In this document: positions 7,980 to 47,687 of the stretch, piece after piece | Position numbering within the stretch: position 1 is the first letter of the stretch | Layout of the letters: each line of letters opens with the position of its first letter | Origin: Pseudomonadota bacterium | Lineage (GTDB): Bacteria > Pseudomonadota > Gammaproteobacteria > Burkholderiales > Rhodocyclaceae | Direction: 5' to 3' | Assembly: GCA_018241665.1 (NCBI GenBank) | Contig: JAFEDK010000008.1 | Span: forward strand, 1-64,000 | DNA length: 64,000 nt | The notes under the pieces: model-generated | Told to the model about the DNA's origin: nothing | What the model saw: only the letters and a program-made list of their open reading frames with translations | The model's database searches: none | Program-made: the position numbers and the translations under genes

Positions 7980-8183
7980 CGTGGGTCTCCTCCTTGGTCC
8001 GGCATCAAAGCCGGAATGGTTTTGCCCGTACGGGCGCCTTCACGGGGCGACAGTCGCCATTCCATGAATCCTTGGGACGCACCGGCCCCGGGCCGGTCCG
8101 CGACGGGTCACGTCGGCGGCGCGGCCCCAGCGGGCGCGTCAGATAGGGAGCTGGCCGGGCTTGCCCGGCGTCGGGTCAGCGGG

Positions 8184-8603: not shown

Positions 8604-8613
8604 CGTCGCCTCC

Positions 8614-9381: not shown

Positions 9382-9427
9382 TGGCTGTGTCTCCGTATGT
9401 TGTTCTCGTGGGGGGCGCCGATTCCCT

Positions 9428-9495
9428 GTGGGGGCGAATTCATTCGCCCTCGGTGCTCATCGCAGGCTGCGGAGGGCGAATGAATTCGCCCCCAC
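9428..9495. repeat. Composite palindromic repeat, copy 2
   Basis: Left unit GTGGGGGCGAATTCATTCGC and the matching right unit ending in CGCCCCCAC form a 22-base inverted repeat around a spacer of about 24 bases. Each unit is itself a palindrome with a two-base centre. It lies between the SDR and thiolase genes, inside the operon. Confidence 0.9.
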
Positions 9496-9536
9496 AGTTC
9501 ATCGATATGCCCGCACAGGCCGAGTAAGGCTGCCGG

Positions 9537-10796
9537 TCAGGCGCTTTCCAGCAGCACCGCTGCGCCCTGCCCGCCACCGGCGCAGGCCGAGGAGACGCCG
9601 TACTGCTGGCCGGCCTCCTGCAGTTCGCGGGCGACGGTGAGGGTCAGGCGTACGCCGGAGGCGCCGAGCGGGTGGCCGATGGCGATGGCGCCGCCGTGCA
9701 CATTGGCCTTGTCCCGGTCCAGCCCGAGCTCCCGCTCGCAGGCCAGGTACTGGGCGCCGAAGGCCTCGTTGATCTCCACGCGGCCGATGTCGCCGACGGT
9801 GATGCCCGCCTTGGCCGCCGCCGCGCGGATGGCCGGCGCCGGGCCGATACCCATGATCTCCGGCGGCACCGCCACCACCGCGCCGCCGACGATGCGGGCC
9901 AGCGGCTTGAGGCCGTGGGCGCGCACCCAGTCGCCGCGGGCGACGATCACTGCCGCCGCGCCATCGACGATGGCCGAGCTGTTGCCGCCGGTCTGCACGC
10001 CGCCGAAGGCCGGCTTCAGCTTGTTGAGGGTTTCGAAGGAGGTCGGGCGCACGTGGCCGTCCCGCTCGAAGCGGGCCAGGCGGTCGGCCAGCTTGATGCC
10101 GCGGGGCTTGTAGCCATCCAGTTCCCAGATGGCGTTCTCGACGGCCGTCACCTCGTCGGCGAACCAGCCGCTCTCCCAGCCGGCGCAGGCGCGGGCGAAG
10201 CTCTGCTCGGCGAAGCGATCCACCTCCTCGCGGCCGATGCCGTAGCGGCGCGCCAGGTTCTCGGCGGTGTCGCCCATGCCGATGCCGGGCGCGGTGTCCT
10301 TGGTGGCTTCCCAAAGGAAGTCGCGGAAATCCACCTGGCCCATGCGGAAGCCGGCGCGGTGGGTGTAGGCCGCCACCGGGTTGCGGGACATGGACTCGGT
10401 GCCCACCGCCAGCACCACGCTGGCCTTGCCGAGGGTGATCTGGTCGGCAGCGGTCAGGATGGTCTCGAAGCCGGTGCAGCACAGGCGCTGCACCAGTAGC
10501 GCCGGGGCCAGCGGATTGACGCCCGAGTACAGCCCGACGTGGCGCGGCAGGAAGTAGGCGTCGAAGCTCGACTGGGCCATGTTGCCGGCGATGATCGCGT
10601 TCACCTCGCTGGCCGGGATACCGCTCTTCGCGAACAGCGCGCGGGCGGCGCAGATGCCCAGGTCGGTGGCGGAGGCGTCGCGCAGCGGGCCGGCGTAGTC
10701 GGCAAACGGTGTGCGCTGGCCGGCCACCAGCCAGATGTCGTCGTAGGTGGTGCCGAGGGCGGCCGCTTCGGAGGCGGCGAAAGCGTGAGTGCTCAT
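9537..10796 (-). CDS. Acetyl-CoA acetyltransferase family thiolase
   Basis: A 419-residue thiolase. The acyl-accepting cysteine is Cys106 in L-C-C-T-G-F-E, the conserved His lies in G-H-P-L-G-A-S-G, and the second catalytic Cys in C-A-G-G-G-Q-G near the C terminus. The N-E-A-F-G motif is also present. It cleaves the 3-ketoacyl-CoA with CoA, giving acetyl-CoA and the shortened acyl-CoA. The chosen ATG (10796) overlaps the stop of the enoyl-CoA hydratase gene as ATGA, which indicates translational coupling; longer frames upstream run inside that gene. AAGGACAAGGACC lies before the start. Confidence 0.92.
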   Translation of the reverse strand: MSTHAFAASEAAALGTTYDDIWLVAGQRTPFADYAGPLRDASATDLGICAARALFAKSGIPASEVNAIIAGNMAQSSFDAYFLPRHVGLYSGVNPLAPALLVQRLCCTGFETILTAADQITLGKASVVLAVGTESMSRNPVAAYTHRAGFRMGQVDFRDFLWEATKDTAPGIGMGDTAENLARRYGIGREEVDRFAEQSFARACAGWESGWFADEVTAVENAIWELDGYKPRGIKLADRLARFERDGHVRPTSFETLNKLKPAFGGVQTGGNSSAIVDGAAAVIVARGDWVRAHGLKPLARIVGGAVVAVPPEIMGIGPAPAIRAAAAKAGITVGDIGRVEINEAFGAQYLACERELGLDRDKANVHGGAIAIGHPLGASGVRLTLTVARELQEAGQQYGVSSACAGGGQGAAVLLESA

Positions 10797-11563
10797 GTGC
10801 GGGGTCCTTGTCCTTTGCGCTGGAGGAATTCGCCGATACGGCCGGCAACTTCGGGGCTGGTTTGCGTGAGTGCGGCGGTGAGGGATTCGACGAAGAAGCC
10901 GTCGTCGGTGGCCATGTTGTCGATGCGGGCGATGGCCGAGCACATTGCCCAGTTGGCCATCGGGGCGTTCTCGGCGACGCGGGCGGCGAGCTGCTGGGCC
11001 TTGGCCAGCGCCTCGCCCTTGCCGACCACGTAGTGGGACAGGCCCAGGCGCTGGCCCTCCTCCGCGTCGAGGATGCGGCCGGTCAGCATCATTTCGCACA
11101 TGCGGCCCGGCCCGATGATCTTGGCCACCCGCACCGACGCGCCGCCGCCGACGAAGATGCCGTGGCGGCCTTCGGGCAGCTGGTAGATCGTGGTCGGCTC
11201 GGCGACGCGGATGTGCGTCGCGGTCGCCAGCTCTAGCCCACCGCCGATCACCGCCCCGTGCAGCGCGGCGATCACCGGGATGCCGCCGTGCTGGATGCGG
11301 TGGAAGATGCGGTGCCACCACTGGGAGTGCTGCATCACACCGAAGGGCTCCCGGTGCTGGTGCTCGGAAAGGTCGAGGCCGGCGCAGAAGTGGTCGCCCT
11401 CCCCGGCCAGGATGATCGCCCGGGTACCTTCGGGCGTCGCCGTCAGGGCTTCGTCCAGCGCCCGCAGCAGGCGGTCGGACACCGCGTTGCGCTTGGCCGG
11501 CCGGGCCAGGGTGATCGTGTAGATGACGCCATCCTGCGACGTCTTGACGAGTTGTTCACTCAT
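10793..11563 (-). CDS. Enoyl-CoA hydratase/isomerase family protein
   Basis: A 256-residue crotonase-fold protein. The oxyanion-hole segments are H-F-C-A-G-L-D-L (about residues 59-66) and H-G-A-V-I-G-G-G-L-E-L (about 104-114). Crotonases of this length hydrate trans-2-enoyl-CoA, but some members are isomerases or aldolases of the feruloyl-CoA hydratase-lyase type, so the exact reaction is not certain. AAGAGGAAACAGCA precedes ATG 11563. Its stop overlaps the thiolase start. Together with the dehydrogenase, SDR and thiolase it completes a beta-oxidation turn. Confidence 0.88.
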   Translation of the reverse strand: MSEQLVKTSQDGVIYTITLARPAKRNAVSDRLLRALDEALTATPEGTRAIILAGEGDHFCAGLDLSEHQHREPFGVMQHSQWWHRIFHRIQHGGIPVIAALHGAVIGGGLELATATHIRVAEPTTIYQLPEGRHGIFVGGGASVRVAKIIGPGRMCEMMLTGRILDAEEGQRLGLSHYVVGKGEALAKAQQLAARVAENAPMANWAMCSAIARIDNMATDDGFFVESLTAALTQTSPEVAGRIGEFLQRKGQGPRT

Positions 11564-33869: not shown

Positions 33870-34604
33870 TCAGTGTCCGGCGCCCTGCTCCGCCGCCGCT
33901 GCGGTGATCTGCCCCTGCGCAAGATTCTGCTGCCGCGCCGCGTGCAGGTTGTGCAGCGTGATCTTGCGCACCTCGGCCTTGCTGGCCTCGATGTGGGAGC
34001 GCAGCAGGATGCTCGCCTGCGCCGCCTTGCGCTGGATCAGCAGGCGCAGCAACTGCGCATGCTCGTCGTAGGTTGCCTGGATGCGCGCCGGATTGGTGAA
34101 GTCCAGGCGGCGCACGATACGGATCTTCTCGGTGACGTCCTGGTGCACGGCGGCCATCTCCCGGTTGCCGGTGGCCAGCACCAGGCCCTGGTGGAAGGCT
34201 TCGTCCAGCGCCGCGACGCGGTTGCCGTCGGTCAGTCGCTCCTCCGGGTCCACCAGCCACACCTCGGTCAGCGCACTCAGGTCCACGGTCTGCGGCGCTT
34301 CGCAGATGCGGCTCACCGCAGCGTCCTCAAGCACGACGCGCAGGTCGTAGAGCTGGTCCAGGCGCTCGAAGTCGATGCTGCGCACCGACCAGCCGCTGCG
34401 GAAATACACCTGCAGAAAGCCTTCCCGCTCCAGGCGGTACAGCGCGCCACGCACCGGCGTGCGCGATACACCGTAGCGCTCGGCCACCTCGGTCTCGGTG
34501 AAGCGATCCCCCGGCAGCAGCTGGAAGGAGAAGATCTCGTCCTTCAACTGCTGGTAGATCCGGTTGGCGAGGGCGTTTTCCCTGGGTCGGCTGGCATTGC
34601 CCAT
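33870..34604 (-). CDS. GntR/FCD-family regulator of the ureide operon
   Basis: A 244-residue regulator with an N-terminal winged HTH (about 15-75; T-E-T-E-V-A-E-R-Y-G-V-S-R-T-P-V-R-G-A-L) and an all-helical FCD ligand domain with metal-site-type residues (D-E-A-F-H near 133 and H-x3 further on). It is the last gene of the operon that begins with the allophanate hydrolase and starts six bases after the AtzH-like gene, so it is autoregulated. The inverted repeat at 42966-42993 is the best candidate operator. The inducer is likely a ureide of this pathway. Confidence 0.88.
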   Translation of the reverse strand: MGNASRPRENALANRIYQQLKDEIFSFQLLPGDRFTETEVAERYGVSRTPVRGALYRLEREGFLQVYFRSGWSVRSIDFERLDQLYDLRVVLEDAAVSRICEAPQTVDLSALTEVWLVDPEERLTDGNRVAALDEAFHQGLVLATGNREMAAVHQDVTEKIRIVRRLDFTNPARIQATYDEHAQLLRLLIQRKAAQASILLRSHIEASKAEVRKITLHNLHAARQQNLAQGQITAAAAEQGAGH

Positions 34605-34609
34605 TTGGC

Positions 34610-34993
34610 TCAGATCAGCATGCTCACGTGGGCCGAGACAACCCGCCAGCCTTCCGGGAAGCGCACCCAGGTCTGGCTCTGGCGGCCGACCGGATCGCCG
34701 TCCCGCAGGAATTCCACGTCGGCGGTGGCGAAGTGCTCGTCGAAGGTGGTGATCACCAGGTTGCGCAGTTGTCGGGGCATGTTGGCGGGGGGAACAAAGT
34801 GCTCCCGGTACTTGCGGATGGCATCGGCGCCGTAGTGGATCTCGGCGATGCCGAAGCGCACCGTGAGCGGATTGTCCCAGAAAAGCGCGTTGAGCACCGC
34901 CACGTCATTGGCGATCAGTGCGGCTTCGTAGCGCTCGAACACGGCGCCCAGTTCGGCGACCACATGGGGAAGATTGATGGCGGGTACGCTCAT
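34610..34993 (-). CDS. AtzH/HpxZ-like protein (DUF3225, NTF2 fold)
   Basis: A 127-residue NTF2-like protein ([24 protein letters not shown] region, residues about 24-47) of the family containing HpxZ of oxalurate catabolism and AtzH of cyanuric-acid catabolism. As I recall, AtzH acts on 1,3-dicarboxyurea to give allophanate. That fits an operon that makes carboxylated biuret-type intermediates. The ATG overlaps the stop of the hydrolase gene as ATGA. Whether this protein is catalytic is not shown by the sequence alone. Confidence 0.82.
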
Positions 34994-35670
34994 GGATTCG
35001 CTTTCACCGCTTCGAGGGCGGCCGTCAGCGCGGCCAGCGGCGCGCTCCAGCCGACGATGCCGCCCTGGGCGACGATCATCTCGATGGCGGCGGCCTTGAA
35101 GGCCGGGAAGTAGCTCTCGGTGGCGTCCTCGACCAGCAGGCAGTCATAACCCCGGTCGTTGGCCTCGCGCATCGTCGTCTGCACGCAGACCTCGGTGGTC
35201 ACGCCGGCGAACAGCAAGTGGGTGACTCCCTTCAGGCGCAGGATTTCCCCCAGCGCGGTGGCGTAGAAGGCGCCCTTCCCCGGCTTGTCGATGACGATCT
35301 CGCCAGGCAGCGGTGCCACGGCAGGAAGGATGTCGTTGCCCGGTTCGCCGGCCACCAGGATGCGCCCCATCGGCCCTGGGTCGCCGATGCGCAGCGCCGC
35401 GTCGCCGCGATTGAGCTTGGCCGGCGGACAGTCGGAAAGATCCGGTCGATGGGCCTCGCGGGTGTGGATCACGGCGATGCCGTGGCGGCGGCAGCTGTCG
35501 AGCAACGCGGCCACTGTCGGAACGATCGCGGCCAGCCGCGACACGTCGTTGCCCAGGCTTTCGCCGAAGCCGCCCGGCTCGATGAAGTCGCGCTGCATGT
35601 CGATGACGATCAGCGCCGTGCTCGCCGGCGCAAAGCTGAAAGCGCAGGGGCGTGCGTCGATATGGATCAT
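34990..35670 (-). CDS. Isochorismatase-like cysteine hydrolase, candidate triuret hydrolase
   Basis: A 226-residue cysteine hydrolase with triad Asp24 (I-V-I-D-M-Q-R-D-F), Lys129 (I-D-K-P-G-K-G) and Cys162 (T-T-E-V-C-V-Q-T-T). ATG 35670 has GAGGAG nine bases upstream; an in-frame ATG at 35679 directly abuts that element and is less likely. It is a diverged paralogue of the BiuH-like protein at 37284 in the same operon. The triuret pathway described in Herbaspirillum uses two such hydrolases (TrtA then BiuH) before allophanate hydrolase, so this one may be TrtA. Ureidoacrylate or N-carbamoyl amide hydrolysis is the alternative. Confidence 0.82.
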
Positions 35671-35683
35671 GGCGCTCATCTCC

Positions 35684-37279
35684 TCAATGGCCCGCCCCGT
35701 GCCCGGCACCGCCCGCCATGTGGCGGCCGATCTCCGCCACATCCACGTAACCGGCCAGCGCCTGGTGGGCGATGCTCCCTTCCGACATCACCAGGATGCG
35801 GTCGGACAGTTCCAGCAGCTCGTCCAGGTCTTCGCTGACCAGCAGGATCGCCGCACCGTCGTTGCGGGCCTGGTCGAGCCGGCGGTGGATCGCCTCGGTG
35901 GCGGCGAAGTCCAGCCCGAAAACCGGGTTGGCGACGATCAACAGGCGTACCGCGCCGGACAGCTCGCGGGCTAGCACGGCCCGCTGGACGTTGCCGCCGG
36001 ACAGGTTCTCGATGGCCGCCGACGGGTCCGGCGGACGCACGCCGAAGGCCTCGATCCATTCCTTCGCCCGGCGTGTCAGCGCGCCGCGGCGCAGGAAGCG
36101 CAGACTGAGCCAGCCGCCGGAGAACGGCGCGATGTCGAAATCCCGCAGCCCCATGTTCTCTGCCACGCTCATGTTGGGAACGCAGGCATTGCGCAGAGGC
36201 TCCTCGGGCAGGCTGAAGACGCCGTGGCGGCGCAGCTCGGCCCGCGTCGCGCCATAGGCCTCGCCATCCACCCGCAGCGCCCCGCCACTCGCGCTGCGCT
36301 GGCCAAGCAGCACCTCAACGAGTTCCTTCTGCCCGTTGCCGGCCACCCCGGCGATGCCGACGATCTCGCCAGCGCGCGCCACCAGGTCAAGTTCGCGTAC
36401 CGCCGGCATGCCGCGATCGTTGTCGGCGCACAGGCGGTCCACCGCCAGGCGGATTTCTCCCGTCTTGCGCTCCGGATCGGCGGCCCGCCGCCGCGGCGCA
36501 GTGGCAACGGAAACCGCGCTGCCGACCATCATCTCGGCCATGTCCTGGGTAGTCAGCTCGCCGACCTTGCCACTCCCCGCCAGCTTGCCGCGCCGCAGCA
36601 CCGTGACGCTGTCGCCGTAGGCGCTCACCTCACGGAACTTGTGGGTGATCATCATCACCGTCAGGCGGCCGTCCCGCGTCATGCCGTGGAGCAGGCCGAG
36701 CACCTCGTCGGCTTCGGCGGGGGTCAGCACCGAGGTCGGCTCGTCGAGGATCAGCAGGCGCTGGCCCAGGTAGAGCTGCTTGAGGATCTCCAGCTTCTGC
36801 TTCTCGCCGGCGGCCAGGTCGGCCACCCGGGCGTTCAGATCGAGGCGGAATGGCGTGCTGTCCAGGAAGGCCGCCAGCGCCGCCTTCTCCCGTCGCCAGT
36901 CGATACGCAGCGGCAGGTCGCCGCGGGCCAGCAGCAGGTTCTCGGCCACCGTCATGCCCGGCGCCAGCGTGAAGTGCTGGTAGACCATGCCGATGCGCAG
37001 GCGCTGGGCGTCGCGCGGGCTGCGGATGGCCTGCTCGCGCCCATCCACCAGGAAGCTCCCTTCCTCCGGCGGGTGGTAGCCGACCAGGCATTTCACCAGC
37101 GTGCTCTTGCCGGCGCCGTTCTCGCCGAGCAGGCAATGGAAGCTGCCGGACGCCACCTTCAGGGACACGTCGTCGAGGGCCGTCAGCGCGCCGAAGCGCT
37201 TGGTGACCCGGTAGGCCTCGACGGCCGCACCGCGGTCCTGCACGTCGGCCGCCAGCAGGGTGTGGGTGAGCGCATCCAT
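35684..37279 (-). CDS. BMP/nucleoside-type ABC transporter ATP-binding protein (two ABC domains)
   Basis: A 531-residue protein with two ABC domains. The first has Walker [10 protein letters not shown] and Walker B L-L-I-L-D-E-P-T (about 165-172). The second, from about residue 275, has a degenerate Walker A (G-V-A-G-N-G-Q-K-E) but the signature L-S-G-G-N-V-Q, as is normal for this family. GGAG sits seven bases before ATG 37279. It energises the permease pair at 37999 and 38927 for uptake of the operon's substrate, probably a ureide. Confidence 0.9.
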
Positions 37280-37283
37280 GGCC

Positions 37284-37967
37284 CTACTCCAGCGCCGCCA
37301 GGAAAGTGCTGGAATCCGACACCGCGCCGAACACCCCGCCCTGCATCTTGATCATCTTGAGCGCGGCCAGGTGGTTTCCATGGTCGGTGGCGCCGCAGCA
37401 ATCCTCCAGCAGCAGGCACTCGAAGCCCATGTCGTTGGCGTCGCGCATGGTGGTGTGCACGCACACGTCGGTGGTGATGCCGGTCAGGATGATGTTGCGG
37501 ATGCCGCCGGTGCGCAGGACCAGCTCCAGGTCGGTGGCGTAGAACGAGCCCTTGCCCGGCTTGTCGATGACCACCTCGCCGGGCAGCGGCGCCAGTTCGG
37601 GGATGATCTCCCAGCCCGGCTCGCCACGTACCAGGATGCGCCCGCAGGGCCCGGCATCGCCGATGCCGGCGCCGATGCGCTGGGAGCGCCAGCGCTTGTT
37701 GGGCGGCAGGTCGGCCAGGTCCGGACGGTGCCCCTCGCGGGTGTGGATGATGAAGAAGCCCAGGCTGCGCAGACGCGCCAGCACCGCCTTGATCGGCCCG
37801 ATAGGCGCGCGGGTCAGGGACAGGTCGTAGCCCATCTTGTCCACGTAGCCGCCGACGCCGCAGAAATCGGTCTGCATGTCGATGATGATCAGCGCGGTGT
37901 TGTCCGGCGTCAGGTCGCCGTTCCAGGGCCAGGGGTAGGGATCGGCTTCGAGGTGGAAAGCGGTCAT
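37284..37967 (-). CDS. biuH: Biuret amidohydrolase (BiuH-type cysteine hydrolase)
   Basis: A 227-residue isochorismatase-fold hydrolase. Its triad Asp30, Lys136, Cys169 keeps exactly the spacing of the Asp36/Lys142/Cys175 triad I recall for Rhizobium BiuH, and stretches such as DPYPWPWNG near the start, [10 protein letters not shown] and [10 protein letters not shown] are very BiuH-like. BiuH turns biuret into allophanate and ammonia. CAGGAG precedes the ATG. The presence of an allophanate hydrolase in the same operon supports the assignment strongly. Confidence 0.87.
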
Positions 37968-37998
37968 GCTTGAAGCTCCTGCCAGGGTTGTCGTGGAT

Positions 37999-38934
37999 TC
38001 AGCGCTGGGTGAAGGACAGCTCGCCGGGCGCGCCGGCCAGGGTCTGCCCCGGCGTCCAGCTGGCCGCCATCAGGGCCAGGGTCAGCACATAGGGTGCCGC
38101 GTTGAAGAGGTAGTAGCCGGCCGTGATGCCCTGCGACTGCAGCGCCGGGCCGAGCGCGCCGGCGGCCCCGAACAGCAGCGCCGCCAGCGCGCAGCGCAAG
38201 GGGCTCCAGCGGGCGAAAATGACCAGCGCCACCGCCATCAGCCCCTGCCCGCTGGACAGGCCTTCGTTCCAGCTGCCCGGGTAATAGAGGGACAGGAAAG
38301 CGCCACCGACGCCGGCCAGGAAGCCGCCGGCCGCCGTCGCCCCGATGCGGATCGGCACCACCGGATAGCCCAGCGCCCGCGCCGCCGCGGCGTTGTCGCC
38401 GACCAGTCGCAGCGCCAGGCCCCAGCGGCTGGCCCGGAAGGCCCAGTGCAGCAGGCCCGCCAGCGCCAGCCCGACGGGCAGCAGCACGTTGATGCGCAGC
38501 GCCGAGCGGATCTGTTCATCGTCGCTCCACGCCCCCAGCTCAACGGACGGCAGCATCGGCGCCTGGGGCTGGATCAGCGGCTTGCCGAGGAAGAAGGCCA
38601 GTCCGGTGCCGAACAGCATCAGCGCGATGCCGACGGCGATGTCGTTCACCTTCGGCAGGGAGCACAGGCCACCGTGCAGCAGCCCCATCAGCACCCCGCA
38701 CAGCCCGGCGGCCAGCACGCCCAGCCACGGCGAGCCGGTGAGCAGCGAGACGCCGTAGCCGCCCATCGCGCCCAGCACCAGCGTGCCCTCCAGGCCCAGG
38801 TTGATGCGGCCGGACTTTTCGGTGATGCACTCCCCAAGGCTGACGAAAAGGAAGGGGGTGCTGACCCGCAGGGCGCCGCCCAGCAGGGCCAGCGCGAGGC
38901 TGCCGAAGGCCAGGCCGTCAGTGGTTTCAGACAC
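37999..38934 (-). CDS. BMP/nucleoside-type ABC transporter permease 2
   Basis: A 311-residue inner-membrane permease (BPD_transp_2 family) with about eight to nine hydrophobic segments and the typical start [14 protein letters not shown]-x8-G-R-I-N-L-G-L-E-G. Translation starts at GTG 38934, with AAGGAG seven bases before it, and overlaps the preceding permease gene by eight bases. It pairs with the permease at 38927. Confidence 0.9.
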
Positions 38935-39961
38935 GGCGTGCTCCTTTCCGGTTGAGGGTTTCGAAGGCCAGCAAGGCCACGAACAGCGCGCCCTGCAACA
39001 CGAGCACAGCAGCGTCGGGCAGATCCAGGCGCCGCTGCAGCAGGCTGCCGGACGCCCCGATGCCACCCACCAGGATGGCGCCGGCGACGATGCCCAGCGG
39101 ATTGTGGCGGGCGGCGAAGGACACCAGGATGCCGGCGTAGCCGTAGCCCGCCAGCAGCGAGGCGTTGGCGCTGCCGTGCACCGCCGCCACTTCGAGCATC
39201 CCCGCCACGCCGGCCGCGCCGCCGCCGAGGAAGCAGGCCGCGATCAGCAACGTGCCGACCGGCAAGCCGGCCATCAGCGCCGCCCGCGGATTGCCGCCGA
39301 CGACGCCGACCGAGAAGCCGAACACCGTACGCCGCAGCAGGAACCACGCCGCCGCGCAGGCCAGCACGCCCCACACCAGGCCCCAATGCACTTCCAGGCC
39401 CGGCAACGGACCGATCAGCACCGCATCGGGCAGCGGCGGCGTCGAAGGCTTGTTGAGGCTGGCCGGATCGCGCAAGACGCCTTCGACCAGGAAATTGAAC
39501 AACGCGATGCCGATGTAGGAGAGCAGCAGGCTGGAGATGGTCTCGTTGATGCCCCGCACGTGGCGCAGCCAGGCCGACGCGGCGATCCACGCCCCACCGG
39601 CCACGAAGCCCGCCAGCGCCATCAGCAGCTGCACCGGCAGGGCCGGCCAGCCGGCGGTCAGGGACGGCACCATCGCCGCGGCAAGCGCGCCCAGCGCCAA
39701 CGCCCCTTCCCCGCCGATGATCACCAGCCCGGCACGGGCCGGCAGGGCCACGCAGAGGGCGGTGAGCATCAGCGGCGCGGCGCGCGCCAGGGTGTTCTGC
39801 CACGCGAAGGCCGAACCGAAGGCGCCCTCCACCACCAGCCCCAGCGCCTCCGGCGCCTCGAAGCCCTGGGCCACCAGGAAGGCCGCGAACAACAATGCGG
39901 CAGCCAGCGCCGCGGCGGTAAAGGGCGCCAGCGGCGCAACGGCGCGCATGGCCCGGTTCAT
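38927..39961 (-). CDS. BMP/nucleoside-type ABC transporter permease 1
   Basis: A 344-residue permease of the same family with about nine to ten hydrophobic segments and the loop A-R-A-G-L-V-I-I-G-G-E-G-A-L-A-L-G. ATG 39961 is chosen because GGAGG lies five bases before it; an in-frame ATG at 39973, which contains that GGAGG, would add four residues. It follows the binding-protein gene by a few bases. Confidence 0.9.
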   Translation of the reverse strand: MNRAMRAVAPLAPFTAAALAAALLFAAFLVAQGFEAPEALGLVVEGAFGSAFAWQNTLARAAPLMLTALCVALPARAGLVIIGGEGALALGALAAAMVPSLTAGWPALPVQLLMALAGFVAGGAWIAASAWLRHVRGINETISSLLLSYIGIALFNFLVEGVLRDPASLNKPSTPPLPDAVLIGPLPGLEVHWGLVWGVLACAAAWFLLRRTVFGFSVGVVGGNPRAALMAGLPVGTLLIAACFLGGGAAGVAGMLEVAAVHGSANASLLAGYGYAGILVSFAARHNPLGIVAGAILVGGIGASGSLLQRRLDLPDAAVLVLQGALFVALLAFETLNRKGARRV

Positions 39962-39976
39962 GGCGGCCTCCATGGC

Positions 39977-41101
39977 TCAGACCTGCCCGATCACGCCGTC
40001 GACCAGGTAGTTCATGCTCTCCAGCAAAGGATCCTGCTGGCCGAGCACCTTGCCGGCGGCGACCACCGTCTTGCCGGTGTTGTCCAGCAACGGCCCCTTG
40101 AAGATCGGGAAGTCGCCCTTCAGCATCGCCGCCTTGACCGCCTCGGACTTCTTCTTCGCCTCGGCCGACACCGCCGGCCCGAAGGGCGACGGCTTGACGA
40201 AGCCGTCCTTCAGCCCGCCACGCAGGAAATTGACCATCGGCTTGCCGTCGAGGGTCGCCTTGACGATTTGTGTGTAAGGCGTCTGCCAGTCCCACTCCGC
40301 GCCGGTCAGGTAGCCCTTCGGCGCCAGCTTGGCCTGGCTGGCGTGGTAGCCGCAGCTGTACACGCCGCGGCGCTCGGCGGTCTCGACGATGACCTTGGGG
40401 CTGTCCACGTGACAGGTCAGCACGTCCACGCCCTGGTCGATGAGGCTGTTGGCGGCTTCGGCCTCCTTGACCGGCAGCGACCAGTCGCCGGTGAAGATCA
40501 CCTTCACCGTCGCCTTCGGGTCCACCGAGCGTGCGCCAAGCAGGAAGGCGTTGATGTTGCGCAGAACCTGCGGGATCGGCTTGGCGGCGATGAAACCGAG
40601 CTTCTTGCTCTTGCTCACCGAGGCCGCGGCGATGCCGTCCAGGTACTGGCATTCGTCGATGTAACCGAAGAAGCTGCCGACGTTCTTCGGGTGCTTGCCC
40701 GCCGTCCACAGCCCGCCGCAGTGGGCGAAGCGCACATTCGGGTATTTCTCGGCCATCTTCAGCACGTGGGGGTCGAAGTAGCCGAAGGAGGTGGCGAAGA
40801 TCAATGACGCCTTGTCCTGGTTGATCATCGCCTCCATGGTCTTCTGCACGGCCACCGTCTCCGGCACCTTCTCTTCCTCCACCACCTTCACGCCGGGCAT
40901 CTTCTTGAGCGCCGCCACCGCCTGGGCCTGGGCCTGGTTGTAGCCGAAGTCGTCCCGCGGGCCGACGTAGATCACGCCGACCACCAGCTTGTCGGCCGCG
41001 CCGGCCAGGCCGATGCCAAAGGGCAAGGCGCTGGCGGCAGCACCGGTGCCGAGAATGCGGAGGATGTCGCGACGGCCGGCGGAGAAACGGGTTTGAGCCA
41101 T
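39977..41101 (-). CDS. BMP-family substrate-binding protein with Tat-type signal
   Basis: A 374-residue periplasmic protein of the basic-membrane-protein (PnrA-like/BMP) family; V-G-V-I-Y-V-G-P-R-D-D-F-G-Y-N-Q and F-A-T-S-F-G-Y are family-typical. Its leader has twin arginines (G-R-R-D-I-L-R-I-L-G) before a hydrophobic stretch, so export is probably by the Tat route, which is common in this family. BMP proteins bind nucleosides, but members next to amidohydrolases serve other polar ligands such as purine or ureide compounds. ATG 41101 follows AAGAGAG. Here a biuret/triuret-type ligand is inferred from context. Confidence 0.88.
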   Translation of the reverse strand: MAQTRFSAGRRDILRILGTGAAASALPFGIGLAGAADKLVVGVIYVGPRDDFGYNQAQAQAVAALKKMPGVKVVEEEKVPETVAVQKTMEAMINQDKASLIFATSFGYFDPHVLKMAEKYPNVRFAHCGGLWTAGKHPKNVGSFFGYIDECQYLDGIAAASVSKSKKLGFIAAKPIPQVLRNINAFLLGARSVDPKATVKVIFTGDWSLPVKEAEAANSLIDQGVDVLTCHVDSPKVIVETAERRGVYSCGYHASQAKLAPKGYLTGAEWDWQTPYTQIVKATLDGKPMVNFLRGGLKDGFVKPSPFGPAVSAEAKKKSEAVKAAMLKGDFPIFKGPLLDNTGKTVVAAGKVLGQQDPLLESMNYLVDGVIGQV

Positions 41102-41126
41102 GGTTGTTCTCTCTTTCGTTGGGGGT

Positions 41127-42953
41127 TCAGGACAAGGTCGGGTCGGCAAGGCGCGCCGCCGCGTGTAGATGGGCACGCCAGCCACCGCTGGCGGAGATAT
41201 CCTGGGCGCCGGCCAGCGCGGCACCCTCGCAGATGAAACCCTTCACCTGCCGGCCGTCGGCGAGGATCAGCGTGCCGATGCCCAGCGGCGGCGGAATCTC
41301 GGCGACGAAGCTGCCGAACAGGCGCAGCGGCATCTCCCACACCTCCACTTCGATGGCGTGCCCCTCGCCGCTCACCCGTTCGAGCCCGAGCTTGGGCGGC
41401 ACGGTGCCGGGCAAGGCGTGCAGGCGGTAGAGCGGCGCAGTCCGGGTGGATTCCACCAGACGGGAGGCCCGTTCGAGGAGCTGCCAGTTGAGTGGCAGGC
41501 CGCTCAGGTGGGCACCGACCACGGCGAGCTGCACGGTGGCCTCCCGCGGCGGCAGGGCCGGCAGCGGCTGCTCGCGGCGCGGCGGCGCCGCTTCGGTCAG
41601 GCCGAGCCGCCGATGCAGCACACGTTCCCAGCTACGCGCGGTTTCCGCCAGCAGGTGATCGGCGCCGGACCGGCCGATCAGGGTCACGCCTGCCGGCAGG
41701 CCGTCGTTACGGAACGGACCCGGCATGGCCAGCGCCGACAGGCCGAGGAGATTGACGAAGTTGGTGTAGCGCCCCAGCCAGGCGTTGCGCTCGATGGGCT
41801 GCTGGGCGATCTCCCGCCGCGTGAAGTGGGTCGGCGTCGTCGGCACCAGCAGCATGTCCACCTGGTCGAAGACCTGGTGGCAGGCCGGTGCGAGCGCTTC
41901 CAGCCGGTAGCGGCCACGGAAGGCGTCGGCAGCGGACTGGATGTCGGCGCGGCCGATGATCGCCGTGACGACCGGATCGAGGCTGGCGTGCGGGGTATCG
42001 AGAAAACGCCCCAGCGCGGCCCGCCGCTCGGCGACCCACGGCCCGTCGTAGAGCAGCGCCGCCACTGCGTGGAAGGGTTCCAGGTCCACCTCCACCAGAC
42101 TGACGCCCGGCACCGCCTGAACGGCGGAAAGGGCGGCGTCGAAAGCCCGTCGCGCCCGCGCGTCGAGTTCGCCCTGCAGCCCCACCGGCACCCCCACCAC
42201 GACGCCGCGGGGCTTGAGCCCACAGGCCGGAACCGCGCCGTCTGCGGTGACCGCCAGCACCTGCCAGGCATCCGCGACGGTATGGGCGAAGATCGACACG
42301 CAGTCCAGGCTGCGGCAGGCCGGCACCACGCCACCGGTGCCGATCAGGCCCGGCGTCGGCTTGAGCCCGACCAGGTTGCAGAAACCCGCCGGCACGCGGC
42401 CCGACCCGGCCGTATCGGTGCCGAGCGCGAAGGCCACGTGCCCGAGCGCGGTGGCCGCCGCCGAACCGGAACTGGAACCGCCGGAGATGTAGTCCGGGTG
42501 AAAGGGATTGCACACCGCGCCGTAGGGCGAACGGGTGCCGACCAGGCCGGTGGCGAACTGGTCTAGGTTGGTCTTGCCGAGCGCGATGGCGCCGGCCTCT
42601 TCCAGGCGGCGCACGGCATCAGCAGACTGTTCCGCCAGGTAGGCGAACTCGCGGCAGGCGGCGGTCGTCCTGAAGCCTGCGACGTCGATGTTGTCCTTCA
42701 CCGCGAAGGGCACGCCGAGCAGCGGCCGGCGGGCCAAGGCTGCCACCGGATCGGCCAGCAGGCTGGCATCCATTTCCGCCAGCCGCTCGCGCAGATCGGC
42801 GTGGGACGCCACGCTGATCCACACCGCCGGGTCGTCGGCGGCGGCGATCCGTGCCAGCAGCGCACGAACCAGGCCGCCTGGAAGGAAACGCCCGCTCCGG
42901 TAGCCTTCGAGCAGGGAATCGATCGTCAATACACGTGGCAAGCTGGCATTCAC
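41127..42953 (-). CDS. atzF: Allophanate hydrolase (AtzF type)
   Basis: A 608-residue two-domain enzyme when started at GTG 42953, close to the 605 residues of AtzF; an ATG at 43001 lies inside the predicted promoter and would add 16 unlikely residues. The amidase domain has the Ser-cisSer-Lys triad Lys86 (A-V-K-D-N-I-D), Ser160 (G-G-S-S-S-G-S) and Ser184 (T-D-T-A-G-S-G-R), with exactly the spacing I recall for AtzF (Lys91/Ser165/Ser189). The C-terminal domain (V-V-G-A-H-L-S-G-L-P-L-N onward) removes the second carbamoyl. It converts allophanate to ammonia and carbon dioxide. First gene of the ureide operon. Confidence 0.95.
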   Translation of the reverse strand: MNASLPRVLTIDSLLEGYRSGRFLPGGLVRALLARIAAADDPAVWISVASHADLRERLAEMDASLLADPVAALARRPLLGVPFAVKDNIDVAGFRTTAACREFAYLAEQSADAVRRLEEAGAIALGKTNLDQFATGLVGTRSPYGAVCNPFHPDYISGGSSSGSAAATALGHVAFALGTDTAGSGRVPAGFCNLVGLKPTPGLIGTGGVVPACRSLDCVSIFAHTVADAWQVLAVTADGAVPACGLKPRGVVVGVPVGLQGELDARARRAFDAALSAVQAVPGVSLVEVDLEPFHAVAALLYDGPWVAERRAALGRFLDTPHASLDPVVTAIIGRADIQSAADAFRGRYRLEALAPACHQVFDQVDMLLVPTTPTHFTRREIAQQPIERNAWLGRYTNFVNLLGLSALAMPGPFRNDGLPAGVTLIGRSGADHLLAETARSWERVLHRRLGLTEAAPPRREQPLPALPPREATVQLAVVGAHLSGLPLNWQLLERASRLVESTRTAPLYRLHALPGTVPPKLGLERVSGEGHAIEVEVWEMPLRLFGSFVAEIPPPLGIGTLILADGRQVKGFICEGAALAGAQDISASGGWRAHLHAAARLADPTLS

Positions 42954-42965: not shown

Positions 42966-42993
42966 AACTTGGATACAAGACAGAATCCAAGTT
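42966..42993. promoter_or_regulatory. Inverted repeat, candidate GntR operator of the ureide operon
   Basis: AACTTGGAT (42966-42974) and ATCCAAGTT (42985-42993) are perfect 9-base arms around a ten-base spacer. The repeat covers the predicted sigma-54 transcription start at about 42984, an ideal place for repression by the GntR protein encoded at the end of the operon. Confidence 0.55.
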
Positions 42994-43217: not shown

Positions 43218-44546
43218 ATGCGCCGCCTGAGCACCACCAGCAGCCGTCGCGACCTCCTCGTCCTCGCCCTGCCGGCCGTCGTGCTGGTCATCGCCGCCTT
43301 CGTGCTGGCCTGGCAGTTCGTGCGACCGGCTCCGCCGAAGAAGATCGTCATCAGCACCGGGGCCGTTGGCGGCGCCTACCAGTTCTTCGGCGAGCGCTAC
43401 CGGGACAAACTGGCCCAGGAAGGCATCGAGGTCGAATTACGCCCCTCCACCGGCGCCGTCGAGAACCTGATGCGCCTGAAGACCGACGACAGCGTGGATG
43501 CGGGCTTCGTGCAGGGCGGCATCGCCAACGAGCCCGATTCGGAAGACCTGGCCACCCTCGGCAGCATGTACCTGGAGCCGGTGTGGGTCTTCTACCGGGG
43601 CAAGGACGACTACGAGCGCCTGACCCAGCTGAAAGGCAGGAAGATCGCGGTCGGCGTGCAGGGCAGCGGCGCCCAGCTCTTCGCACTGCAGCTGCTGTCG
43701 GCCAACGGCTTCGCCACCCACGACCCGACGCTGGTGGCCATCGGCGGCATGCAGGCGGTGGACGCCCTCAAGCGCGGCGACGTGGATGCCTTCTTCGTGG
43801 TCGGCGCGCCGCAGGCGCCGGTGGTGGGTGCGCTGCTCCACACGGAGGGCATCAAGTTGCTCGACTTCGTCCAGGCGGAAGGCTACGTACGCCACTTCCC
43901 GCACCTGCTGACGGTCACCCTGCCTCGCGGCGCCATCGACATTGCCAACGACCGGCCGGCCAGGGACATCCACCTGCTCGCCGCCACCGCCAACCTGGTG
44001 GTCAAGGCCGACATCCATCCGGCCATCGTCACCCTGCTGCTCAAGCACGCCCGCGAGATCCACCGCGCACCGGGCCTGCTGCAGGCCGCCGATGCCTTCC
44101 CGGCCCCCCAGGACCACGCGCTGCCGCTGCACCCGTCGGCACGCCGCTTCTACGACAGCGGCCCGCCCTTCCTGCAGCGCTACCTGCCGTTCTGGCTGGC
44201 GGTGCTGATCGACCGCCTGATCGTCATGCTGCTGCCGCTGGTGGCGGTGGTGATCCCCCTCTCCAAGGTCTTGCCGGGGATCTACAACTGGCGTATCCGC
44301 TCGCGCATCTACCGCTGGTACGGCGAGCTGAAGTACCTGGAGAACGAGCTCGACCAGGCGCCGGCCACCGCCCACGACGCGGACGCCATCGACGCCTTCA
44401 TCGTGCGCCTCGACCGCATCGAGCAGCGTGCGCTGCACCGCAAACTGCCGCTGGCCTTCAGCACCGAGCTGTACACCCTGCGCGAGCACATCGCGCTGGT
44501 ACGTGGCCGCCTGCAGCGTCTTGCGGAAACTGCCACAGGCCATTGA
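43218..44546 (+). CDS. TAXI-family TRAP solute-binding protein, membrane anchored
   Basis: A 442-residue protein. An N-terminal membrane segment (about 14-36) is followed by the TAXI binding domain (S-T-G-A-V-G-G-A-Y near 46-54; G-V-Q-G-S-G near 145). A second hydrophobic stretch near 325-350 is followed by a C-terminal charged helix region of about 90 residues. No TRAP permease (DctQ/DctM) gene is adjacent, so it may sense rather than transport. CAGGAG precedes the ATG. Similar anchored TAXI proteins with C-terminal extensions occur in betaproteobacteria, with no clear function known to me. Confidence 0.82.
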   Translation: MRRLSTTSSRRDLLVLALPAVVLVIAAFVLAWQFVRPAPPKKIVISTGAVGGAYQFFGERYRDKLAQEGIEVELRPSTGAVENLMRLKTDDSVDAGFVQGGIANEPDSEDLATLGSMYLEPVWVFYRGKDDYERLTQLKGRKIAVGVQGSGAQLFALQLLSANGFATHDPTLVAIGGMQAVDALKRGDVDAFFVVGAPQAPVVGALLHTEGIKLLDFVQAEGYVRHFPHLLTVTLPRGAIDIANDRPARDIHLLAATANLVVKADIHPAIVTLLLKHAREIHRAPGLLQAADAFPAPQDHALPLHPSARRFYDSGPPFLQRYLPFWLAVLIDRLIVMLLPLVAVVIPLSKVLPGIYNWRIRSRIYRWYGELKYLENELDQAPATAHDADAIDAFIVRLDRIEQRALHRKLPLAFSTELYTLREHIALVRGRLQRLAETATGH

Positions 44547-44616
44547 AAGTCAAATTGATAAACTCGTCGGGCAGGCGGCCATCCGACCGCCGGCGCGACG
44601 CAAAACGAGCCACACC

Positions 44617-45228
44617 ATGAGTCCCCATCTCGATCTCACCGCCCCTTACGCCCCGCTGGTCCATCGCATCGAAAAGGAAGCCACCGTCGAGAACGGCCAG
44701 ATCCTGCGCATCGACCACTTCCTGAATCACCGCATCGAGCCGGCCTTCATCTTCGAGCTGGCCCATGAGCTGGCGCGGCGCCTGTCCTTCTTCCAGCCCA
44801 ACGTGATCCTCACCGCCGAGGCGAGCGGCATCGCGCCGGCGCTGATCGTCGCGCAGACCCTCAGCGTGCCGCTGGTGTATGCCAAGAAGTATTCGCCGCA
44901 GGTGGAAGCCCCCGCAATCTCGCGGATCATCCCGTCGCCGACCAAGGGCGGCCACACCCGGCTGGTGATCTCCCAGCGCTACATCAAGCCCGGCCAGCGG
45001 GTCGTCATCGTGGACGACTTCCTCGCCAACGGCCGCACCGCCACCGCGCTGATCGACATGGTGCGGGAAGCCGGTGCCGAGGTGCTGGGCGCCGGCTTCG
45101 TGGTGGAAAAGCGCTTCAAGCAGGGCCGCGAGCACATCGAGGCGCTGGGCGTCCCGGTGTCGACGCTGGCCCAGGTGGAACGCCTCGAACAGGGCCATGC
45201 GATCCTGGCCCAGCCGAAGTCGGAGTAA
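44617..45228 (+). CDS. xpt: Xanthine phosphoribosyltransferase
   Basis: A 203-residue type I phosphoribosyltransferase. The PRPP-binding motif is V-V-I-V-D-D-F-L-A-N-G-R-T (about 127-139) and the start L-R-I-D-H-F-L-N-H-R-I-E-P matches the Bacillus-type Xpt, not the enterobacterial Gpt. It salvages xanthine to XMP. ATG 44617 is directly in front of the conserved start; upstream frame sequence is part of the TAXI gene region. It is a purine-salvage gene near two ureide-degradation loci, but no operon link is visible. Confidence 0.88.
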   Translation: MSPHLDLTAPYAPLVHRIEKEATVENGQILRIDHFLNHRIEPAFIFELAHELARRLSFFQPNVILTAEASGIAPALIVAQTLSVPLVYAKKYSPQVEAPAISRIIPSPTKGGHTRLVISQRYIKPGQRVVIVDDFLANGRTATALIDMVREAGAEVLGAGFVVEKRFKQGREHIEALGVPVSTLAQVERLEQGHAILAQPKSE

Positions 45229-45424: not shown

Positions 45425-46240
45425 TCACTTCGACAGCGGATAGAACAGCTGTTCGTTGCCGATGCGGTAGGCGGAGATCGCCCGCCGGCCTTCGGCGGAG
45501 GTGAGCCAGTTGATGAAAGTCTCGCCGGCCACTTTCTTCACGTGCGGGTGTTTCGCCGGGCTCACCAGCATCACGCCGTAGGGGTTGTAGAGCTTGAGGT
45601 CGCCCGCATACAGGATGGTCAGATCCTGGCGGTTCTTGAAGCTGGCCCAGGTACCGCGGTCCGATAGCGTGTAAGCCCCCATGCCGGCCGCCATGTTCAA
45701 GGTCGGCCCCATGCCGGAACCGGCCTCCTTGTACCAGCCCTGCCCCTTCGGCTCCACGCCCGCCGCCTGCCAGAAACGCAGTTCCGCCGCATGAGTCCCG
45801 CTGCGATCCCCGCGGGACACCCACGGGCTGCCCTTGCGGGCGATGCGCGCGAAGGCGTCGGTCACATCCTTTGCGCCCTTCACGCCCGCCGCGTCGGCCA
45901 CCGGGCCGACCAGCACGAAGTCGTTGTACATCACGTTGCGGCGGTCGATGCCGTAGCCGTCGGCAACGAACTTCTCTTCGGCCGGCCGATCATGCACCAG
46001 CACCACGTCGGCGTCGCCGCGGCGCCCCACGTCCAGCGCCTGGCCGGTGCCGAGGGCGACCACTTTCACCGCAATACCGGACTGCTTCTCGAAGATCGGC
46101 AGGATGAAATTGAACAGCCCCGACTGCTCGGTGGACGTGGTGGACGCCAACACGATGGTTTCGCCGGCCTGGGCCGCCGGTGCCAACGCTGCCAGGCCCA
46201 GCACAACCGATCTGAGAAACTTCAAAACGCCATACGCCAT
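45425..46240 (-). CDS. tupA: Tungstate ABC transporter substrate-binding protein
   Basis: A 271-residue periplasmic protein with signal peptide (cleavage near residue 25, A-Q-A|G). The oxyanion-binding start L-A-S-T-T-S-T-E-Q-S-G-L-F is the T-T-S-T motif of TupA/WtpA-type tungstate binders, and it resembles TupA more than ModA. AGGGAG lies before the ATG, which is inside the end of tupC (19-base overlap). With tupB and tupC it imports tungstate for the aldehyde oxidoreductase encoded upstream in the same run. Confidence 0.92.
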   Translation of the reverse strand: MAYGVLKFLRSVVLGLAALAPAAQAGETIVLASTTSTEQSGLFNFILPIFEKQSGIAVKVVALGTGQALDVGRRGDADVVLVHDRPAEEKFVADGYGIDRRNVMYNDFVLVGPVADAAGVKGAKDVTDAFARIARKGSPWVSRGDRSGTHAAELRFWQAAGVEPKGQGWYKEAGSGMGPTLNMAAGMGAYTLSDRGTWASFKNRQDLTILYAGDLKLYNPYGVMLVSPAKHPHVKKVAGETFINWLTSAEGRRAISAYRIGNEQLFYPLSK

Positions 46241-46968
46241 GGTAGTTCTCCCTGGATGTAGAGCCGCGCGGCCTGGGAGGCCGGGCGGGCAAAGAAACGC
46301 TGGACCGGCGCGTGCTCGCAGACACGGCCGGCGTCGATGAAGACGATGTCGTCGGCCAGGCGGGTGGCCTGGCCGAGGTTGTGGGTGGTCATCAGGATGC
46401 GCGTCCCCTCGGTGCGGATCTCCCGCACGATGCGCTCGATGGCGTCCACCGAGGATGGATCGAGGCTGGCGGTCGGTTCGTCAAGGAGCAGCAGGCGCGG
46501 CCGCGTCACCCAGGCCCGCGCCAGAGCCAGGCGCTGACGCTCGCCGCCGGACAGGCCACGGGCGCCGTCGTCGGCCCGATGGGCCAGGCCGACACGGTCG
46601 AGCACCGCACGGGCCCGCTGCCGGCGCTCCGCCGCCGGCACGCGCTGCGGGCGCAGCGCCAACTCCACGTTGGCGAGCACTGAATCGCGCAGCATCTTCG
46701 GCTGCTGGAAAACCATCGCCACGCCGAACTCGGGTCGGCTTCCACCGCCCCACTCAATCTCGCCGCTGTCCACTTCGAGCAGGCCGCACAAGGTACGCAG
46801 GAACACGCTCTTGCCCGCCCCGTTGGGACCGAGCAGGATCGTGATGCCCTCGCCGCCCAGCTCCATGCTCAGCCCGTCGAGCACCCTGCGTCCGCCTGCC
46901 TGCCAGCACAGCTCATGGATGCGCAGCGGAAACAGGGATGGCGCCAGTGCCGCGTCGTCCGCCCTCAT
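46222..46968 (-). CDS. tupC: Tungstate ABC transporter ATP-binding protein
   Basis: A 248-residue ABC ATPase with Walker A G-P-N-G-A-G-K-S, signature L-S-G-G-E-R-Q-R-L-A-L and Walker B L-L-L-L-D-E-P-T-A-S. ATG 46968 overlaps the tupB stop as ATGA; an ATG seven codons earlier lies inside tupB. No C-terminal molybdate-binding (TOBE) domain is present, unlike ModC. It energises the TupB permease. Confidence 0.92.
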   Translation of the reverse strand: MRADDAALAPSLFPLRIHELCWQAGGRRVLDGLSMELGGEGITILLGPNGAGKSVFLRTLCGLLEVDSGEIEWGGGSRPEFGVAMVFQQPKMLRDSVLANVELALRPQRVPAAERRQRARAVLDRVGLAHRADDGARGLSGGERQRLALARAWVTRPRLLLLDEPTASLDPSSVDAIERIVREIRTEGTRILMTTHNLGQATRLADDIVFIDAGRVCEHAPVQRFFARPASQAARLYIQGELPWRMAF

Positions 46969-47669
46969 GCGTAGCGCCTCAGCGCCCATTGGCGCAGTGC
47001 ATGAGCGAAGCCGTTGAGGAGCAGGATCACCGCCAGCAGCACCAGGCCCAGCGCGACGGCCAGTGGCAGGTCGCCCTTGCTGGTTTCCAGCGCAATAGCA
47101 GTAGTCATCGTGCGGGTGGAGCGGTCGATGTTGCCGCCGACGATCATCACCGCCCCCACCTCGGACATCGCCCGCCCCAGGCCGGCCAGCACCGCCACCA
47201 GCAGGGAATGGCGGCAGTCATGGAGCAGCACGCACACGCTGTCGAGCCAGCCGAAGCGCATCGCCGTGAGCTCTTCCTCGTATTCCCGCCAGGCGTCCTC
47301 GACGACCTGCCGGGCGATCGCCGCCATCAGCGGCACCACCAGCAGGGTCTGGGCAAGGACCATCGCCGTCGGCGAATACAGTAGCCCCAGTTCGCCCAGC
47401 GGCCCGGAGCGCGACAACGCCAGGTAAACCACCACCCCCACCACCACCGACGGCAGGCCCATGCAGCCGTTGAGGATCACCACCAGCGCCGTCCGGCCAG
47501 GAAAACGCCCGACGCCCAGGCAGGCCCCCAGCGGCAGGCCAAGCAGCGTGCCGAACAGCACTGCCAGGCCGCTGACCCGCAGGGACAGCAGCACGATCTC
47601 GGCGACCCGCTGATCGAAACCGGCGAGCAGGACAAGGGCATCGGAAAGGGCCTGGGTGAGTCCGTTCAT
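46965..47669 (-). CDS. tupB: Tungstate ABC transporter permease
   Basis: A 234-residue inner-membrane permease with about five to six hydrophobic segments and the ABC permease coupling loop E-V-G-A-V-M-I-V-G-G-N-I (about 165-176). ATG 47669 is preferred over TTG 47678, though no strong ribosome site is visible. It overlaps tupC by four bases and starts 18 bases after the small gene at 47688, within the AOR operon. Confidence 0.9.
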   Translation of the reverse strand: MNGLTQALSDALVLLAGFDQRVAEIVLLSLRVSGLAVLFGTLLGLPLGACLGVGRFPGRTALVVILNGCMGLPSVVVGVVVYLALSRSGPLGELGLLYSPTAMVLAQTLLVVPLMAAIARQVVEDAWREYEEELTAMRFGWLDSVCVLLHDCRHSLLVAVLAGLGRAMSEVGAVMIVGGNIDRSTRTMTTAIALETSKGDLPLAVALGLVLLAVILLLNGFAHALRQWALRRYA

Positions 47670-47687
47670 GCGGAGCAAGATACCGGC

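Follow-up and report, generated by a model that had tools for sequence, protein, structure and literature searches.

Nine genes on the minus strand of a Rhodocyclaceae genome probably form an operon for scavenging nitrogen from triuret and biuret, with an importer, a decarboxylation step and control by a GntR-type regulator. They lie in a stretch of 64,000 nucleotides (the window; assembly GCA_018241665.1, contig JAFEDK010000008.1, positions 1 to 64,000). This reading, made from sequence comparison, is given a probability of about 80%. Triuret and biuret are impurities of fertiliser. The genes run as an unbroken tight unit from atzF (41127-42953) through the GntR-FCD gene (33870-34604). Intergenic gaps are about 31 nt or less and several stop and start codons overlap, so the unit was classed as an operon. 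The initial annotation had placed the same genes in one unit and had read it as a biuret and probably triuret operon with importer and regulator. Family searches found every named gene on the minus strand in tight packing. The reading itself was borne out, as TrtA and BiuH are close orthologues of enzymes whose families have an established route from triuret through carboxybiuret and biuret to allophanate (PMC7948467).

In the proposed pathway an AtzT-like ATP-binding cassette (ABC) importer would take up planar ureides. TrtA would convert triuret to carboxybiuret and ammonia, a reaction known for an orthologue of 68% identity. The uncatalyzed loss of the carboxyl group from carboxybiuret takes minutes and may be sped up to biuret by an AtzH-family protein lacking Arg66. 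BiuH would then form allophanate and AtzF would release ammonia and CO2 from it, both by orthology. Biuret may also enter directly at the BiuH step. Control by the GntR protein would act at a CTTGTATNCAAG site in the leader.

By alignment, the hydrolases encoded at 34990 and 37284 are TrtA and BiuH, close orthologues of characterized enzymes. Both have an intact Asp/Lys/Cys triad. The 34990 protein has Asp24, Lys129 and Cys162 together with Glu72 and Lys132, residues whose roles were assigned in PMC7948467. It is 68% identical to 6xix compared to 48% to BiuH. The printed chain of 6xix equals that of 6xj4 except for the catalytic cysteine, and 6xj4 was named as TrtA (PMC7948467). The 34990 protein scored 257 bits on the BiuH model NF050097, under the cut-off of 370, because its closest relative is the sister enzyme TrtA. 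It had been annotated as a second, diverged cysteine hydrolase; the hydrolase and its triad are there, and "diverged" is corrected to TrtA. The definition of TrtA includes activity on triuret, with activity on biuret four orders lower. Specificity for triuret rather than biuret was attributed to Phe35, Asn41, Glu160 and Ile205 in TrtA, which are Tyr, Tyr, Asp and Val in BiuH, while Gln202 is common to both (PMC7948467). The 34990 protein carries the full TrtA set, as do all 81 aligned sequences (the window and 80 relatives picked by similarity to its TrtA). The 37284 protein carries the BiuH set Tyr/Tyr/Asp/Gln/Val, as do all 69 aligned sequences, which were gathered via similarity to the window TrtA. 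It passes NF050097 and is 79% identical to the solved Rhizobium leguminosarum BiuH 6azo, in agreement with its annotation as a BiuH-type hydrolase with the triad. The atzF product has both the family score and the C-terminal AH_C domain of an allophanate hydrolase.

Two other substrates were considered and rejected. RutB, of pyrimidine use, was rejected for both hydrolases because they scored 105 and 120 bits on the RutB model, far under its cut-off of 378. Cyanuric acid was rejected as the main substrate in the window genome because PF09663 found nothing there; the same model matched 25 of 399 genomes of the order.

Public genomes were scanned with the 34990 protein and the best 80 of at least 586 confirmed relatives were kept as loci. 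The core BMP-permease-permease-BiuH-ATPase-TrtA was present in the same order and on the same strand in 61 of these 80, which excludes chance grouping. Of the remaining 19, several lie on short or truncated contigs, and L010, L019, L051 and L062 are genuine departures (loci have L numbers and genomes G numbers). In the combined TrtA-bearing set the two permeases were neighbors in 79 of 79 counted pairs, the ATPase and TrtA in 86 of 87, and BiuH and the ATPase in 75 of 83. Permease 2 and BiuH were adjacent in 51 of 80 pairs, with a gap of more than 500 bp in the other 29. A formamidase-family gene was found between permease 2 and biuH in L163 (approximately 6452-7594; PRK13287 560 bits, cut-off 406) and on plasmids L258, L259, L260 and L261. 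The full nine-gene order was found in five of the 80 loci (L005, L006, L024, L032 and L055). L005 and L006 (Zoogloea sp. LCSB751) are near relatives of the window, L032 and L055 are from Paraburkholderia, and L024 has inserted genes. The nine-gene order plus formamidase was also present on a Pseudomonas plasmid.

The formamidase bears on a reading in which the unit serves mainly biuret or formylurea-like amides and triuret is incidental. Its place between permease 2 and BiuH in the name-checked relatives, the 29 wide gaps among the 80 pairs and the rank of formylurea as TrtA's next best substrate (PMC7948467) all fit. Activity on formylurea, however, is 0.3% of that on triuret (PMC7948467), formamidase is missing from the window operon, and the residues that mark triuret specificity are conserved. 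This makes such a use quite improbable, and triuret and biuret together are kept as the probable substrates.

Among 320 genomes of the window's order 32 had BiuH above the cut-off, and 31 of these had a second match of 200-340 bits as read from the list. In the window's class BiuH was above the cut-off in 10 of 274 genomes, with such a second match in 10. This score range does not prove TrtA: the protein of G171 (L167) is without the signature and that of G251 has an internal stop. The operon is patchy: among the 10 listed genomes of the same family, only that of the window and G519 gave a match at E 1e-50.

Among solved structures the operon's BMP protein has its best match in AtzT, encoded on the s-triazine plasmid pADP-1 (214 bits); 3s99 is the other close relative. 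The AtzT crystal contains guanine, with Tyr45 and Trp194 on its two faces and Ser97, Glu165, Asn218 and Asn220 keeping it in place (PMC6834077). The window protein retains the Tyr45/Trp194 aromatic sandwich, Ser97 and Asn169. It has Gln, His and Asp at Glu165, Asn218 and Asn220, so the guanine-binding set is incomplete. A planar ureide could plausibly be held in the sandwich, and we infer that the protein binds triuret or biuret. The other reading is that the importer carries purine bases or nucleosides, and that the main role of the operon is to recover purine oxidation products, triuret being formed within or next to that pathway. It draws on the relationship to AtzT, with guanine in its crystal (PMC6834077), and to 3s99, on a xanthine phosphoribosyltransferase encoded nearby on the other strand and on PMC12625717, where the same BMP importer genes are labeled a nucleoside transporter. 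It is unlikely, as biuH and trtA lie among the importer genes in most loci, and at the position of Glu165 70 of 72 operon-linked proteins have Gln, Ser or Thr (Gln 58, Ser or Thr 12, Phe 1, Glu 1). The control for this position is thin, with three unlinked non-copies: Glu in L161 (a paralogue from the window genome) and L225, and Gln in L109. A ureide importer is the preferred reading. A search of open-licence literature found no experimental work on a bacterial importer of biuret or triuret, which is weak evidence of absence since subscription literature was mostly outside it.

The 34610-34993 protein had been annotated as AtzH/HpxZ-like. Its place in the AtzH family stands, and it scored 165 bits on the HpxZ model NF033625, over the cut-off of 135; a true AtzH or HpxZ identity is disfavored, as it is without Arg66 and has no AtzE beside it. 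In Pseudomonas ADP, AtzH reportedly decarboxylates dicarboxyurea supplied by AtzEG, and requires Tyr22 and an arginine-rich pocket (PMC6219798). The window protein retains Tyr22, Arg46, Arg63, Arg73, Phe94, Arg96, Gln106 and Gln108, with Val in place of Arg66. Tyr22 and Arg46 of AtzH are thus present and the complete arginine pocket is not. No AtzE or AtzG, the partners that supply dicarboxyurea, is encoded in the operon, and no protein of the window genome reached the AtzE cut-off TIGR02715 (best 322, cut-off 426); on this ground an AtzEG-AtzH route was rejected for that genome. HpxX and HpxY are the partners of HpxZ. No gene for either lies next to the 34610-34993 gene in the operon. A pocket of AtzH type minus one arginine would suit a substrate with one carboxylate. 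The absence of Arg66 and of a neighboring AtzE suggests that the protein is most likely a carboxybiuret decarboxylase (TrtB-like), rather than AtzH or HpxZ. The decarboxylase gene trtB was reported to co-occur with TrtA (PMC7948467), and the 34610-34993 gene adjoins trtA in the window. The comparative data on Arg66 and AtzE agree with the earlier proposal that the AtzH-like protein acts on a carboxylated intermediate.

Across triuret and biuret loci, AtzH-family proteins keep Arg66 where AtzE is encoded and lose it where AtzE is absent. In TrtA or BiuH loci overall Arg66 was kept in 45 of 45 proteins with AtzE and was missing in 30 of 31 without. Sample A (L007-L084 and L165; L005 and L006 were excluded as near copies of the window) gave 24 of 24 with Arg66 where AtzE was nearby and 18 of 19 lacking it where AtzE was not. 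The sole exception is L011, whose contig ends 484 bp past the start of the AtzH hit, where AtzE could not show. Sample B comprised 59 AtzH matches of more than 140 bits in the 320 genomes of the order, the window included; two weaker matches over the family cut-off (G547 and G456) and nine below it are omitted. In its TrtA/BiuH loci Arg66 was present in 17 of 17 beside AtzE and missing in 7 of 7 without, and three of its members (the window, L163 and L164) had already been seen when the rule was first noticed. Plasmid loci fetched afterwards gave 4 of 4 and 5 of 5, respectively. For these, 16 of 54 records with AtzH matches were inspected, chosen for spread, and the nine with a TrtA or BiuH relative of at least 57% identity were counted. 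Arg66 is retained in each of the seven uncounted records; the AtzE probe matched in six of these and not in the seventh, L271. None of the plasmid AtzH sequences matched a sequence in samples A and B. A match of at least 200 bits to a single probe, taken from L062, counted as AtzE.

Outside TrtA/BiuH loci Arg66 was kept in 34 of 35 sample B proteins; the exception, L253, has AtzE, so the rule fails there. The other AtzH pocket positions are mostly constant, with Asp or Ser at Arg96 in some groups. The replacements at Arg66 differ by group (Val, Leu, Cys, Phe/Tyr, Gln, Thr/Ser), which points to several losses without being proof of them. The best tree had eight changes of Arg66 and seven of AtzE, of which well-supported branches force only two, and the test for paired changes on the tree was not significant. 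Fisher p-values overstate the strength of the link, as they take related loci as independent. The contexts of atzG-atzE-atzH clusters gave little clue to the role of AtzH (PMC6219798). In the 320 genomes of the order 24 of the 59 strong AtzH-family genes sit in TrtA or BiuH loci, which suggests that a sizeable fraction of them act on carboxybiuret derived from triuret. A marker of a single residue that tells two decarboxylases apart would correct annotations. The hypothetical protein Bxe_B1374, whose structure is solved (PDB 2owp), resembles the group without AtzE in its Cys at 66 and its Ser at 96, and may be a carboxybiuret decarboxylase.

Several points weigh against a carboxybiuret decarboxylase. 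Arg66Ala and Arg66Lys are absent from the five impaired AtzH variants given in the excerpts of PMC6219798. Arg66 may thus be a marker and not a cause, and may not matter even for dicarboxyurea. The link of the 34610-34993 gene to trtB rests on the naming in PMC12625717, where what seems to be one gene is called trtB in the text and atzH in the abstract. Although trtB is said to co-occur with AtzD, an AtzH-like gene was found within about 1.5 kb in none of 30 AtzD loci. Of 98 TrtA loci, 32 showed no AtzE and no AtzH-family gene, some of them on short contigs, which means that genes for decarboxylation do not accompany TrtA in every locus.

The alternative for this protein is a true AtzH or HpxZ acting on dicarboxyurea or on intermediates of the oxalurate pathway, with carboxybiuret decaying without an enzyme. 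The HpxZ cut-off was passed (165 against 135), Tyr22 and Arg46, which AtzH needs, are retained, Arg66 variants of AtzH were not reported as impaired and the TrtA product decays to biuret spontaneously with a half-life of about 20 min (PMC7948467). There is, however, no AtzE in the operon or over the cut-off in the genome (322 against 426) and the loss of Arg66 follows the pattern of the loci without AtzE. This alternative is doubtful but carries some weight, and a carboxybiuret decarboxylase remains the preferred identity. The flanks of AtzD genes were dropped as a test of TrtB identity. Within flanks of 1.5 kb or less one of the 30 AtzD loci, L138, adjoins TrtA. L163 is its wider stretch and holds AtzF, an Arg66-less AtzH-like protein, BMP, BiuH, TrtA and GntR, then AtzD. 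The more distant AtzH-like gene of L163 is no proof of TrtB.

A second arrangement holds AtzE and an Arg66-bearing AtzH, and was found in 39 of the 98 TrtA loci. This set omits L022 and L043, which were not typed by residue pattern, and L051 and L058 were typed by hand. Two further loci of the 98 have AtzE without AtzH. BiuH was not in view in nine of the 39. A genome-wide check covered five of these nine (the other four are L019, L051, L062 and L069) and found BiuH encoded elsewhere in G389, G428 and G278. G263 and G462 have TrtA, AtzE and AtzH, and no protein in either genome was over the BiuH cut-off. Both encode allophanate hydrolase, which in G462 is split into two pieces with a stop. The other G263 hydrolase read, L106, carries Glu at the position of the BiuH Gln. 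The gene content of these two genomes suggests that triuret can be degraded without biuret as an intermediate.

A tentative proposal, put at slightly under even odds, is that triuret operons have two mutually exclusive solutions for carboxybiuret. In one AtzGE and an Arg66-bearing AtzH could dispense with biuret and BiuH. In the other, which would include the window, an AtzH-family decarboxylase that has repeatedly lost Arg66 would feed BiuH. Arg66 and its neighbors would then let the substrate be read from the sequence, and the BMP importer would be dedicated to triuret and biuret. If the split is true many proteins now called HpxZ would be renamed and 2owp would be given a function.

On the minus strand, CTTGTATCCAAG (42968-42979) lies shortly before the atzF GTG start and is a reasonable operator candidate for the GntR protein. 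The pattern CTTGTATNCAAG was scanned with up to one mismatch in 500 bp around the inferred BMP or AtzF starts. Of 42 loci with a GntR homologue at least 50% identical, 19 had such a match, compared with 0.04 expected from single-base shuffles; of 43 loci without such a homologue, 5 had one (0.14 expected). Some of the loci counted had also served to choose the pattern. It was missing from the scanned 500 bp in the other 23 of the 42. A scan for sigma-70-like promoters found no site and was uninformative.

The features of the unit are listed in Table 1. Three listed open reading frames (ORFs) probably begin too far upstream, at 35742, 39066 and 41224. The starts 35670, 38934 and 41101 are probably better, the last two being inferred from the ORFs. 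The trtA start is probably at 35670, an ATG with GAGGA upstream, instead of 35742. The BMP protein has a twin-arginine-like RRDILRI at its N-terminus, with the start codon inferred at approximately 41101.

Table 1. Genes and candidate regulatory site of the putative triuret/biuret operon in the window.
Feature	Position	Strand	Remarks
atzF, allophanate hydrolase, amidase and AH_C domains	41127..42953	-	GTG start 42953 or ATG 43001; PRK08186 767 bits (cut-off 487), TIGR02713 718 (cut-off 511), AH_C 163; best PDB match 4gyr allophanate hydrolase
BMP-family ABC solute-binding protein, AtzT-like	39977..41101	-	PF02608; best PDB match AtzT 6pi5, 214 bits
ABC permease 1	38927..39973	-	PF02653
ABC permease 2	37999..38934	-	PF02653; start inferred (GTG 38934 overlapping preceding stop; listed ORF to 39066)
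biuH, biuret hydrolase	37284..37967	-	NF050097 419 bits (cut-off 370); 79% identity to 6azo
ABC ATPase, two ATP-binding domains	35684..37279	-	PF00005, two stretches
trtA, triuret hydrolase	34990..35670	-	68% identity to Herbaspirillum TrtA 6xix over 219 residues
AtzH-family protein without Arg66, candidate carboxybiuret decarboxylase (TrtB-like)	34610..34993	-	PF11533 162 bits
GntR/FCD-family regulator	33870..34604	-	PF00392 and PF07729
Candidate regulator site CTTGTATCCAAG	42968..42979	sequence read on minus strand	just upstream of atzF GTG start

Second past atzF and on the opposite strand is the xanthine phosphoribosyltransferase gene (44428-45228, plus strand; 179 bits, cut-off 164), whose purine link to the operon is possible. 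A tungstate-type ABC transporter lies at 45425-47678 on the minus strand, where TupA-like and TupB-like genes, both under their equivalog cut-offs, flank an ATPase gene. The window genome encodes a second allophanate hydrolase outside the operon (G000 contig C43, 38790-40460, 842 bits). An extra gene of approximately 250-280 residues sits beside the AtzH-like gene in the alphaproteobacterial loci L012, L014, L017, L018, L020, L023, L037, L047, L049 and L069. Three copies were read, and that of L014 had no NCBIfam match. By eye it presumably resembles 5-formyltetrahydrofolate cyclo-ligase. A TrtA relative was found in 78 Escherichia plasmid records, of which one was read, the Escherichia coli conjugative plasmid L265. 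It encodes a hydrolase with the TrtA signature beside DUF2877, FdrA, DUF1116 and carbamate kinase genes (5986-11544). A comparable pairing was reported in comammox (PMC12625717). On the R. leguminosarum plasmid L258 a 354-bp gene annotated as allophanate hydrolase (9662-10015) follows TrtA and, judged from its length, may be a stand-alone C-terminal domain.

The initial annotation also held that the unit would be a fuller system than any characterized. This did not survive comparison, as the same gene set occurs in ammonia oxidizers (PMC12625717) and the same order in Paraburkholderia. The operons of Herbaspirillum BH-1 and R. leguminosarum 3841 contain TrtA, BiuH and AtzF (PMC7948467), and the window shares these three hydrolases with orthologous specificity residues. 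Herbaspirillum frisingense L024 has AtzF, importer, BiuH, TrtA, AtzH-like and GntR genes in the window order but differs in approximately 2.9 kb between AtzF and BMP, by eye a second ABC transporter. Plasmid L258, from R. leguminosarum bv. trifolii and not 3841, differs in having formamidase and AtzD, with no AtzH-like gene and no full-length AtzF in the plasmid stretch.

An ammonia-oxidizer contig holds atzF, biuH, trtA, trtB and bmpA-nupABC (PMC12625717, mSystems 2025), and gntR is in the gene list of the Fig. 6 legend without being tied to this contig in the text excerpts. Compared by gene content, the set is the same as in the window, including the importer and decarboxylase, while the importer is there named a nucleoside transporter. 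The pADP-1 genes atzDGEHF and atzSTUVW (L275), which serve the cyanuric acid pathway, share AtzF, an AtzH-family protein and an AtzT-type importer with the window. They differ in AtzD, AtzEG, a LysR regulator and an AtzH that keeps Arg66, in a stretch without TrtA or BiuH. The window AtzH-like protein is over the HpxZ cut-off, as for the HpxXYZ oxalurate genes, but is without an HpxY/AtzE partner and Arg66. In the open-licence literature the Arg66 split was not mentioned, again weak evidence of absence with subscription literature mostly outside. The operon itself is ordinary, and the more useful result is the comparative Arg66 rule. Earlier work already covers the enzymes, the operons and the full gene combination. 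The window operon joins a known type, to which the comparative Arg66-AtzE rule is the new addition.

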